47,632 bases of DNA from Lachnospiraceae bacterium (GTDB lineage Bacteria > Bacillota > Clostridia > Lachnospirales > Lachnospiraceae). The stretch spans positions 86,173 through 133,804 of the forward strand of contig JAFTKW010000006.1 of NCBI GenBank assembly GCA_017453065.1. The letters are read 5' to 3'. A program made the translations under genes and the position numbers. Below are positions 36,809 to 39,639 of this stretch, one piece after another (positions within the stretch are counted from its first letter, which is position 1; each line of letters starts with the position of its first letter). A model generated the notes under the pieces. The model searched no databases. It saw nothing but the letters and a program-made list of their open reading frames with translations, and was not told the DNA's origin.

Positions 36809-36870
36809 ACCAAAACTCCTTCTCATAGTTCATCCTATTTATTGTTATTTCGCCTTATATGCTCTACCTA

Positions 36871-37192
36871 AGTCGGTTCATCTTTCTTCTTTTCCCACTG
36901 ATCTCTCACAATCATATTCTTAGTGGGTATATTTTTTCTTCATCTCCCTACTGATTATTACTTTTCCATCCTCGAGTCGGGATAATTGTTTTTTCTTTTC
37001 CAACTTATTGAAACTCCTTCTATCTCTAGTTGGAAACTCAAATTCACAATTTCCTACTTCAAGCCCTTTTTTACTTCACAAGTCGGAAAAACTCTATCAT
37101 ACTCTCCAACTCTAATCTTTCAAAACTGGCTCTAGTCGGTAATCACTCTTTTTTCATACCGACCGGAAAGAATCTTTTACGCTAGCAGTTGG
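36871..37192. repeat. array of alternating inverted half-sites, 53-bp period
   Basis: Direct half-sites AGTNGG start at 36871, 36922, 36975, 37028, 37081, 37134 and 37187. Inverse half-sites CCNACT start at 36894, 36947, 37000, 37053, 37106 and 37159 (the last reads CCGACC). The inverse sites are exactly 53 bp apart throughout; the direct sites are 53 bp apart except the first interval (51). Inside a unit the inverse site precedes the direct one by 28 bp, leaving 22 nt between them, and 19 nt separate units. These 22- and 19-nt segments differ between units but are pyrimidine-rich on the plus strand. An extended consensus, AGTNGGAAAA, fits many sites. The array fills the comEC/nuclease-gene gap. 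Confidence 0.9.
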
Positions 37193-37263: not shown

Positions 37264-39639
37264 TCACCACTGCTCTTTCCAACGCCGAATTCTTAGTTCT
37301 TTCCCCACCTTCATCTGGACTGCGCCGCACTCCGGTGTTGTCAGCACAATGCTTCCATCCGCATAAAGCCTCTCTAGTGTCTCCTTATGCGGATGGCCAT
37401 ACCAATTGTCTTCACCGCAAGATATAACCGCCACATCTGCATCTATCACATCCAAAAAGCCCTCCAAGGTGGAATACCTCGAGCCGTGATGAGCCACTTT
37501 TAGCACATCTACATGTGAAATTCCTCTCATTTTCAACTGCTCTACCAGAAGACGTTCTCCACGCCCTTCCACATCCCCAGTCAACAGGACGGAATACTCG
37601 TTCACCGTCACATAAAGGACTAAAGAATATTCATTGGCACTATCCGCCTGTCCGTAACCCACCGGTGGGTGCAGACACAAGAAAGTAAGCCTCTCCTGCC
37701 ACAGATTCTCATCCCAAAACATCTTTCCTGCCCATGGACTTAAACTTTCTTCTGCCCAGTTCATGCCTTCGGAAAGATAGTACACAGGTATTTTGTAGCT
37801 TTCAGCTAACGCTTCTATCTCTATGTACGCCTCCTCTTTAACCTCTTTCTTCACATCTGGCAATAGAATTCTTTTAACCCTATCTCCATACCCAGCCTCC
37901 AGCACACTCTCTAGTCCATTGCAATGATCCGCATCCGGATGAGTAATAATCCACCCCTCTATCTCTCTTACTCCTTTACTCTTCAGAAAAGGGGCAATGG
38001 TGTATTTCCCCACGTCGCTTTCAGAACTGCTCCCTCCGTCAACCATGTAAACTTTCCCCGTGCTAGAACGCAGAAAAACACCATCTCCTTGACCCACATC
38101 CAAGAAACAAATTTCAGTTCCAAAATTGACCGGAACAGTCATGGTAAAAATGCCAATCAAAATTAATTTAAAACATCCCTGTCGGGTAATCCTTTTTCCC
38201 CATAAAATCAGCGTTCCTAGCACCAATACATAAAATAACACCTGAAATGTTGACACGCCTCCCACTATGCATCTGCTCCCCGGAAGAGTCAAACTCAACT
38301 TCGCCAAACTGGAGTACAAATTTAAGACCAACTTGGTCAATGCACAAATTATGGTGCTTACGCTCCACGGAGACACAACAATTAGTGTTATTCCCAGCAC
38401 AAACAGCGTCGGAAGTAATGGTATCACTATCAAATTTAGCACCATACTGTAAGGAGCTATCTCATAAAAAGCCAACGCCATTATAGGCAACGTCGTCACA
38501 GTTACAGAGAAGCTAACCAACAATGCTTGTTTCACTCCTTTTAAGACTCCAAACAGAAATTTTGCCATCCCCTCTCTGTATCTATCGCCCTTTCCGTCTC
38601 CTTCAAGCAGCGGCAAAATGCACCCAATTCCAATCATAGCCCCAAAAGATAGTAAAAAACCCGACTGATACAAATACAACGGGTTCTGGACTACCATCAA
38701 GCACAGCAATACTCCCAAAGAGGTCATCGTATCATAACTTCTCTCCAGAAGTATCCCCAACATTCGAATCACAAACATGCCTGCTGCGCGGAAAGCACTA
38801 GCGCCTGCATCTGTAAAAACACCATAAGTAACAATTATACATATCCCCAATATTGCCGAAGCCCACAGTGGTATGCCCAGTCGTCTAAGCAATTTATAAA
38901 AACTCATGCCCACGAGAGACATATGTAGTCCCGAGATAGCCAAAATATGTGAGATGCCACTTTGCTGATAAAGACCTTTCATGCTTGTATCCAATCGATC
39001 CTTACTTCCAAACAAAATTGTGCTAAGCACAGACCCCTGCTCTTTACCCAAACGTTCCTCCAAAATAGCAGACCAGCTACATTTACACCTCCACATATAT
39101 TCCCGCACAAAACTATGACTTTGGCTAACCCAACACAAGGTTCCATCATACATGCGCATACCTATTCCCATACTGGCATAGTACAACCTGCTATTAAATT
39201 CTCCAGGATTGGTAGGAAGATCAAAATCGGAAAGTATTCCTTCTACCAAGACATAGCTGCCCATGGCTGGTTCTTCCCCATCTAAATGCACCATGACTTG
39301 TGTTCCTAATCTGCCATTGTCCCAGTTTGACTTCTCTATTAAATTTTCTAAAGATTGTTTTGAAATAATATCCCAAGAAGTTGGGTAATTGAAAACCTCC
39401 ATCGAGGCCTTTGACTCGCGCACAATTGCTTCCACAGAGCAAATTGTCACATTAGATAAAAAAAGAATGGACGATTCCCGCCCGTTAGATATTCGGTATT
39501 GCTTAGCTGCCACCTGACCATATACATAGACCTTCTGTCCCGCCACGTCGTGGTTTTTCAGTTCGGGCGGAAACAGGGCCTGCCACAAAGCGATCAGGCA
39601 GACCACCCAAGCGCATACCGCCAAAAGTGGTCTTTTCAT
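37264..39639 (-). CDS. comEC: DNA internalization competence protein ComEC/Rec2
   Basis: A 791-residue protein of full length. An N-terminal membrane helix and DUF4131-like outside domain (with LVEGILSDFDLPTNPGEFN) precede the competence domain of several helices (QQSGISHILAISGLHMSLVG, GASAFRAAGMFVIRM). The C-terminal metallo-beta-lactamase-like domain has ICFLDVGQGDGVFLRSS, ITHPDADHCNGLESVLE and VAHHGSRYS. ComEC forms the channel for single-stranded DNA uptake and may degrade the other strand. The start has AAAGGCG upstream. It follows the GerMN gene by 17 bp. Confidence 0.95.
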   Translation of the reverse strand: MKRPLLAVCAWVVCLIALWQALFPPELKNHDVAGQKVYVYGQVAAKQYRISNGRESSILFLSNVTICSVEAIVRESKASMEVFNYPTSWDIISKQSLENLIEKSNWDNGRLGTQVMVHLDGEEPAMGSYVLVEGILSDFDLPTNPGEFNSRLYYASMGIGMRMYDGTLCWVSQSHSFVREYMWRCKCSWSAILEERLGKEQGSVLSTILFGSKDRLDTSMKGLYQQSGISHILAISGLHMSLVGMSFYKLLRRLGIPLWASAILGICIIVTYGVFTDAGASAFRAAGMFVIRMLGILLERSYDTMTSLGVLLCLMVVQNPLYLYQSGFLLSFGAMIGIGCILPLLEGDGKGDRYREGMAKFLFGVLKGVKQALLVSFSVTVTTLPIMALAFYEIAPYSMVLNLIVIPLLPTLFVLGITLIVVSPWSVSTIICALTKLVLNLYSSLAKLSLTLPGSRCIVGGVSTFQVLFYVLVLGTLILWGKRITRQGCFKLILIGIFTMTVPVNFGTEICFLDVGQGDGVFLRSSTGKVYMVDGGSSSESDVGKYTIAPFLKSKGVREIEGWIITHPDADHCNGLESVLEAGYGDRVKRILLPDVKKEVKEEAYIEIEALAESYKIPVYYLSEGMNWAEESLSPWAGKMFWDENLWQERLTFLCLHPPVGYGQADSANEYSLVLYVTVNEYSVLLTGDVEGRGERLLVEQLKMRGISHVDVLKVAHHGSRYSTLEGFLDVIDADVAVISCGEDNWYGHPHKETLERLYADGSIVLTTPECGAVQMKVGKELRIRRWKEQW

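Follow-up and report, generated by a model that had tools for sequence, protein, structure and literature searches.

REP/BIME sequences are regularly spaced, alternating repeats served by a solitary cognate RAYT (TnpA-REP) gene that often lies beside an array; the segments between the repeats are unrelated, cognate repeats track the enzyme and REP copies usually exceed 100 per genome (PMC2817692, in the part of that article drawn on here). TIGR systems consist of a tandem array of two alternating repeats, locus-specific in sequence, beside one effector gene, with repeats of 8–12 nt, spacers of 9 nt (up to 12) and a Nop-domain protein, and CRISPR direct repeats measure 25–36 nt (PMC12045711, again for the portion cited here). 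Here we describe an array of alternating inverted half-sites in a window of 47,632 nucleotides (the whole stretch of DNA that was analysed) from a Lachnospiraceae bacterium, where it lies between the gene of a predicted PD-(D/E)XK nuclease and comEC (Table 1).

Table 1. Features of the nuclease and array locus, in window coordinates.
Feature	Position	Strand	Basis
Predicted PD-(D/E)XK nuclease, 267 aa	36005..36808	-	AlphaFold2, conserved residues, PADLOC, Foldseek/VIA
Shine-Dalgarno-like AAGGAGT of the nuclease gene	36815..36821	-	Read from the sequence
Alternating inverted half-site array, 13 sites, period 53 bp	36871..37192	.	Sequence and scan
Lone gene-proximal half-site AGTCGG, 23 bp to the next half-site	36871..36876	.	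Site listing
Dyad unit CCCACT-N22-AGTGGG	36894..36927	.	Genome pattern search and site listing
Dyad unit CCTACT-N22-AGTCGG	36947..36980	.	Genome pattern search and site listing
Dyad unit CCAACT-N22-AGTTGG	37000..37033	.	Genome pattern search and site listing
Dyad unit CCTACT-N22-AGTCGG	37053..37086	.	Genome pattern search and site listing
Dyad unit CCAACT-N22-AGTCGG	37106..37139	.	Genome pattern search and site listing
Dyad unit CCGACC...AGTTGG (half-site-N22-half-site)	37159..37192	.	Unit and site listing
comEC, conserved upstream neighbour of the subfamily	37264..39639	-	Pfam Competence, 2.1e-49

Twelve exact AGTNGG or CCNACT sites and a thirteenth with one mismatch (CCGACC, at 37159) alternate along the array. 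The six inverse sites, with which the dyad units of Table 1 begin, are spaced exactly 53 bp apart, and a direct site follows each of them at exactly 28 bp (6/6); only the step nearest the gene is irregular (36871 to 36894, 23 bp), the other direct–inverse gaps being 25 bp. The 22- and 19-nt segments in between all differ from each other. The original prediction, made from this stretch of DNA, had described the number of sites, their spacing and the variability of the segments in just these terms, and all three were confirmed. When the window was scanned up to its last 132 bases in 94 overlapping 1-kb stretches, more than five alternating elements occurred in two stretches only, both over the array (12 and 7 elements), the other 92 holding three to five; shuffled upstream regions of homologues reached at most five (36 plain and 67 dinucleotide shuffles). 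Across the window genome the exact CCNACT-N22-AGTNGG unit is confined to this array (five matches), with three further matches of N21 or N23 spacing. Avoidance of the exact unit elsewhere in that genome was considered and dropped, the counts (none at N22, three at N21/N23) being too few. Among 44 units of the comEC-linked subfamily, half-site columns carry 0.69–2.0 bits and all other columns at most 0.95, a profile of little weight because the units were chosen by half-site match and the result is partly one of construction.

The product of the neighbouring gene is predicted, from sequence and structural model, to be a PD-(D/E)XK nuclease of an unnamed family. Its AlphaFold2 model (75 sequences; mean pLDDT 95.6) consists of a helix (2–28), a beta-hairpin (33–48), a long helix (62–100), small helices and a C-terminal nuclease domain (about 150–265). 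All 75 aligned sequences share E162, D193 and E208; the core fold and acidic active-site residues by which the PD-(D/E)XK superfamily is recognized are present in model and alignment, and the active site is intact at the sequence level. A PADLOC PDC-S68 model matches residues 146–270 of a 273-aa reading of the protein (4e-27), and Foldseek and VIA group the C-terminal domain with Bax1, Vsr and other PD-(D/E)XK enzymes; Foldseek against the PDB gave no match to the model at E 0.001. The window protein has no Pfam family above cut-off and no NCBIfam match, and over 75 members no Pfam family was found in more than one, with no match to a transposase. Pfam likewise returned no Nop domain in the window proteins or the 75 members, the model being a helical arm joined to a PD-(D/E)XK-like domain, and no cas genes were found among the seven window proteins scanned.

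A search of GTDB contigs returned at least 554 confirmed encoded relatives, the best 80 of which are mostly from Lachnospiraceae and other Clostridia. Counting the window genome in both cases, the nuclease was matched in 26 of 99 drawn genomes, often several times in each (some of these matches being the domain only, inside long proteins), and in 36 of 101 genomes of a wider draw from the genus. Viral contigs contained no relatives, phage records gave three matches (one of them across more than 80% of the protein) and plasmid records 11 (none covering 80%), and an origin from phage or plasmid was rejected on these counts. The phage record MT839528.1, an unannotated 4.2-kb faecal 'Bacteriophage sp.' contig that may be bacterial DNA, encodes a 33%-identical homologue (380–1153; 96% of the query). 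Eighteen loci, the window included, have comEC adjoining the nuclease, and because this neighbour is kept the comEC-side subfamily is mainly vertically inherited. Three further paralogues (L002, L003 and L004) lie on contigs C8 and C12 of the window genome: the upstream signal of L002, which contains an internal TAG, is weak (six elements in one scan, a different seven-element one in another), and L004 has an array of 13 elements with a period of ~51 bp downstream of the gene. Four loci (L025, L027, L028 and L029) contain the same nuclease domain inside open frames of ~1130–1320 aa, the stretch scanned before the match being inside the locus's own frame.

Arrays are common beside these relatives. 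Of 80 named loci, 78 had a usable upstream flank, and alternating inverted half-sites numbered at least six in 60 of these, at least eight in 50 and at least ten in 49. Downstream flanks of the 78 loci, which are a fairer background than shuffles for such counts, gave at least six elements in eight and at least ten in two. Four of the eight downstream matches have the typical period and look like true arrays (L071, L102, L131 and L140); the remaining four hold 7–9 elements at odd periods of 35–45 bp, and three of the 60 upstream matches, with six elements each, also have odd periods (30, 58 and 44). Arrays of at least ten elements lie ~1 kb or less from the gene in 51 of the 80 loci and nowhere else in the 412,615 bases covered. 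The largest comprise up to 30 half-sites, the last half-site lies a median of 76 bp from the gene or match start, and half-site sequence changes between protein lineages. The placement of the array directly upstream of a nuclease-like gene, as first claimed, is correct for the window and usual among relatives, and does not extend to L071, L140 and L131, where an array is downstream of the gene. In L071 none was found upstream, and because its array sits between the nuclease gene and a gene that we take from its sequence to be holA, a promoter-only role cannot account for this locus. In L131, AGTGGG arrays flank the nuclease gene, one ~1.7 kb upstream (8 elements) and the other 1.1 kb past its start (16 elements).

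The mean periods of 71 arrays fall at 51.2–54.0 bp (n = 56), 61.4–64.0 bp (n = 8), 74.0–74.8 bp (n = 5) and 83.8–84.0 bp (n = 2), that is, at five, six, seven and eight turns of 10.5 bp. Rayleigh R at 10.5 bp was 0.91 for all 71 arrays and 0.875 (p ~1e-5) for the 15 outside the five-turn class alone, these values, like the Mantel statistics below, being inflated because related sequences are not independent. The best-fitting pitch of those 15 is 11.05 and not 10.5 (R 0.899), which counts against the reading that we favour below. The test covered 128 loci with a detector that permitted any period from 28 to 100 bp, and yielded 74 arrays of at least eight elements, or 71 after removal of three duplicates; for L071, L131, L140, L102 and L004 the downstream flank was taken after an array had been seen there. 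Excluded were L084, L129 and L101 of the named loci and L001, L002, L007, L022, L025–L029 and L043 of the first set, and L059, L061, L062 and L064, with frames shorter than 230 aa, were skipped; L070 (seven elements) fell below the cut. Of the skipped loci, L064 has 13 elements at 63 bp, and L059 has ten elements with an odd period of 55 bp and a nearly palindromic motif, which counts against phasing. Two downstream flanks outside the 71 are also odd (L091, 8 elements, 45 bp; L101, 9 elements, 41 bp).

Comparison of comEC-linked relatives shows one spacing constant at 29–30 bp and the other at 24, 35 or 45 bp (L081, L083, which has a diverged half-site, and L070). Since the first is fixed and the second is not, the dyad appears to be the unit and the linkers to vary by whole turns, a rule that RNA guides would not follow. 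Linkers have drifted in the window array, L017 and L032, and whole units are near-identical tandem copies in L034, L058, L037, L020 and L033; the variable segments, being either drifted or tandem copies, are therefore best read as linkers and not as acquired spacers. Compensatory change between paired half-sites was not found (z 0.16 and −0.67), complementarity being 1814 of 2022 positions versus 1813.4 expected on re-pairing, and 2099 of 2334 versus 2101.7. In L182 (G046:C1, ~96.4–97.1 kb) the linker types alternate, which suggests higher-order repeat units of ~104 bp.

Half-site and protein diverge together. Over the 71 arrays, half-site similarity follows protein identity with a Mantel rho of 0.29 (p 0.005, the floor for 199 permutations). 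The share of pairs whose half-site similarity exceeds 0.7 is 0.00 of 341 below 30% protein identity, 0.01 of 1566 at 30–40%, 0.03 of 321 at 40–50%, 0.27 of 178 at 50–60% and 0.41 of 71 at 60–80%, and all eight of the eight pairs above 80% exceed it. With overall identity controlled, hairpin columns 29–60 predict the half-site better than the rest of the protein (permutation p 0.002). Among the top 20 predicting columns, ten are in the nuclease domain and five in the hairpin, the two best (172 and 75) being outside the latter, so a role of the hairpin as the half-site reader is a suggestion only. In the model, the 39-residue arm helix (~58 Å at 1.5 Å per residue) would span the 14 bp (~48 Å) from the dyad centre to a half-site.

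In several genomes cognate arrays are found at additional loci as well. The exact three-half-site CCNACT/AGTNGG pattern has matches in 7 of 101 genomes, and arrays beyond the nuclease-linked ones were found in G057, G058, G120, G030 and G055. A reversed control pattern has one match in 11 of the 101 genomes, so a single match is no evidence, and that of G007, at a contig end and with no nuclease, may be due to chance. Three other patterns were each run on the same eight genomes, with one control match overall: GCAAGC has matches in G046 and G018, AGGCAA in G011 and at related sites of G018 and G046, and AAGCCC in the single-contig genome G006, at the nuclease array and at three further loci. 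Of 40 array loci (L159–L198), 39 lack nuclease homology in the stretch examined, several of these stretches ending at contig ends, and one is a nuclease locus; L178 has three half-sites only, and L164 and L166 may be opposite ends of a single array. In the window genome the CCNACT-N22-AGTNGG unit forms one array only, which counts against dispersal.

A CCGAC-type nuclease (identity of at least 46%, a threshold chosen after the data were seen) is present in 6 of 101 genomes, in two as fragments at contig ends. CCGAC arrays occur in five of these six versus two of the other 95 (Fisher p 1.6e-6). The two genomes with arrays and without the nuclease are G007 (59% complete) and G058, where many CCGAC arrays and no CCGAC-type nuclease were found in a 73% complete genome; G008 carries the nuclease, at a contig end, and no CCGAC arrays. 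In three of the four half-site families, best-match linker identity was higher within than between arrays of one genome, at 0.76 versus 0.65, 0.86 versus 0.70 and 0.83 versus 0.54. In the CCGAC family, linkers resemble those of the same array no more than those of other arrays (0.69 versus 0.70), a further result against the reading favoured below. All these identities exceed the random level (0.42–0.44), so the arrays look related by descent.

Several arrays of G058 share a left flank of up to ~190 bp and a right flank of ~245 bp within a repeat of ~650 bp, and as this repeat has its own ends, another enzyme may have moved those arrays. The MITE-like repeat carries the arrays of L159, L161, L162, L164, L165 and L167, and its flank includes a conserved stretch, shared with G057 (L168), whose core (CAATTGAAC..GTTCGATTG) resembles a hairpin. 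The other dispersed arrays inspected have intergenic flanks beside different genes. GCAAG-type arrays L187–L191 (G018) and L184–L185 (G046) end on one side in a variant half-site (GACTGCCT/AGGCAGTC or a near match) and on the other in an ordinary one; from this variant at one end, they may have polarity and a defined terminus.

One intergenic position recurs, behind a gene presumed from its sequence to be rpsI. A CCGAC array without nuclease is found there in G058 and a different array in G048, and the nuclease module occupies the position in L127, L128, L136 and L141. In a comparison of 20 of the 47 matching genomes, G054 and G055 (with a nuclease at or near the spot) standing outside the 20, 19 had no array of at least six elements behind rpsI, G052, represented by 160 bp only, among them; G048 is the twentieth. 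The position (L160, L208, L127, L128, L136 and L141) holds an array only, an array with a nuclease, or nothing. It looks like a favoured site, and the differences fit variable occupancy; because the downstream genes differ, no insertion boundary or target duplication was defined.

Our preferred reading, which we hold to be an even call, is that a dimer of the nuclease binds the cognate phased arrays, probably cuts or nicks them, and so drives their amplification and spread. The array would be a series of helically phased, double-stranded DNA recognition sites for the adjoining nuclease, with the 34-bp dyad CCGACT-N22-AGTCGG as the working unit. One dimer would occupy each dyad, with the half-sites read by the tips of the beta-hairpins on its two arms and the PD-(D/E)XK domains placed near the dyad centre; as the units repeat at whole helical turns (five in the window), the dimers would face one side of the DNA and could touch. 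The nuclease would most likely act in trans on all cognate arrays of a genome, nicking or cutting inside the units, and repair after cutting may amplify and homogenize the arrays and occasionally copy them into new intergenic sites. More broadly, and somewhat more tentatively than an even call, these loci may form an undescribed class of dispersed repeats. Its solitary PD-(D/E)XK nucleases, often several per genome, would each read their own half-site by arm and hairpin and build, homogenize and spread phased arrays along the chromosome. Such a class would be a second, independent counterpart of RAYT and a natural ZFN-like two-half-site nuclease, with its specificity diversified over hundreds of proteins.

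The chief rival to amplification and spread is a static host scaffold, in which the nuclease binds the arrays without moving them, the arrays keeping it inactive or organizing the chromosome, and acts on other targets, such as incoming or damaged DNA, after its release. Half-sites and phasing are indeed kept at a fixed locus, beside comEC, the active-site residues are invariant and PADLOC models of defence candidates match the nuclease domain with their C-terminal part. The presence of arrays with diverged linkers at other loci, together with tandem homogenization, nevertheless requires a process of propagation, which a scaffold does not supply, and the neighbours identified on inspection, comEC and rpsI among them, are ordinary genes; we therefore consider this explanation possible but rather unlikely. 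An autoregulatory operator, by which the array solely controls transcription of the nuclease gene, with either the nuclease or a separate repressor as its ligand, would suit the upstream position of most arrays and their short distance to the gene. The number of half-sites in the largest arrays speaks against it, as do arrays downstream of the gene and cognate arrays at nuclease-free loci, and such an operator is improbable. Autoregulation alone was rejected, since arrays can be downstream and at unlinked loci.

A similarly low probability attaches to the idea that another protein reads the half-sites, with the nuclease as a frequent neighbour, or that a transposase of another family carries the arrays about. 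The MITE-like flanks shared by some arrays of G058 and G057 are in its favour, as is the scatter of the best half-site-predicting columns over the nuclease; the confinement of large arrays to the vicinity of the gene in the named loci and the way in which half-site similarity tracks the nuclease, and its hairpin columns more so, argue the other way. The original prediction had left open whether the conserved sites formed a protein-binding scaffold or an array of guide-like RNAs. Its first half gained from the helical periods, the absence of compensatory change, the agreement of half-site with protein and the arrays elsewhere. The second, a CRISPR-like or TIGR-like array with the variable segments as guides, can point to conserved alternating sites around variable segments and to an array strand that folds better than shuffles (z −3.52), as inverted repeats do anyway. 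Linkers are tandem copies in several relatives, periods obey DNA helical turns, covariation is absent and, across the window, Rfam reported a tRNA alone at gathering score with no family over the array, where the best sub-threshold match is to a CD-box snoRNA family (E 0.25). Many CRISPR spacers match nothing. The comparison of variable segments with phage that the original prediction had called for was made for the six 22-nt segments, none of which has an exact match in viral contigs. Guide RNAs are thus very improbable, and we rejected this explanation on the tandem linkers, the helical quantization, the lack of covariation and the lack of an exact viral match for the six segments.

A large unnamed nuclease family appears to carry a readable DNA specificity code. 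Because the likely target is often written many times beside the protein, this code is testable by computation and in vitro, and the family could yield new site-specific two-half-site nucleases. The loci also caution against taking every alternating array next to a nuclease for a guide-RNA locus.

Among systems with repeats beside an enzyme gene, type III toxin–antitoxin loci (ToxIN) produce a tandem-repeat RNA antitoxin that is cut by its own endoribonuclease; the DNA phasing and the downstream arrays seen here speak against that type. Phased operator or centromere arrays such as ParR/parC have several binding sites in phase close to the gene whose product binds them, whereas the present sites are linked to a nuclease, differ in half-site between lineages and have copies at other loci. 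The C-terminal nuclease domain is shared with the PDC-S68 defence candidates of PADLOC, but those models are ~1200 aa long. As in CRISPR-Cas, repeats and variable segments adjoin a nuclease gene, but sites of 6 bp with alternating orientation are much shorter than its repeats, and the segments are drifted tandem copies. TIGR-Tas likewise has a tandem array of two alternating, locus-specific repeats and one effector gene; its array is processed into 36-nt RNAs, and 6-bp half-sites with 22/19-bp segments differ from its repeats and spacers. The original prediction that neither CRISPR nor TIGR fits is therefore borne out by repeat length, spacing and the absence of Nop and cas matches. Among the titles and openings of abstracts listed in a search of mainly open-access journal literature, none described a PD-(D/E)XK protein with such arrays.

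The nearest likeness is to REP/BIME and RAYT, and here the statement that no equivalent has been described needs amending: a partial equivalent in logic exists (PMC2817692, as far as the part cited here goes), although enzyme and site differ. In both, the repeats are alternating, regularly spaced and intergenic, a solitary nuclease-type gene has its own repeat and often lies beside an array, and the segments between repeats are unrelated. Cognate repeats are dispersed in genomes that carry the enzyme, though not universally (the window genome has one array, and G058, G007 and G008 are exceptions). Unlike RAYT, a Y1 tyrosine transposase of the IS200/IS605 type, the enzyme is here a predicted PD-(D/E)XK nuclease with a helical arm. 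Each REP contains an imperfect palindrome that complementary mutations preserve, whereas half-sites of ~6–8 bp are here phased by whole turns without complementary change, and one to about ten array loci were listed per genome versus the usual more than 100 copies of REP (PMC2817692, same part). Because the RAYT enzyme and the palindrome are absent, and the defining features of TIGR-Tas and CRISPR likewise, we file the system under no known family. The comparison suggests that the pairing of dispersed repeats with an enzyme of their own has also evolved around an enzyme that does not resemble RAYT, and points to a system that would work like REP–RAYT with an unrelated enzyme and site.
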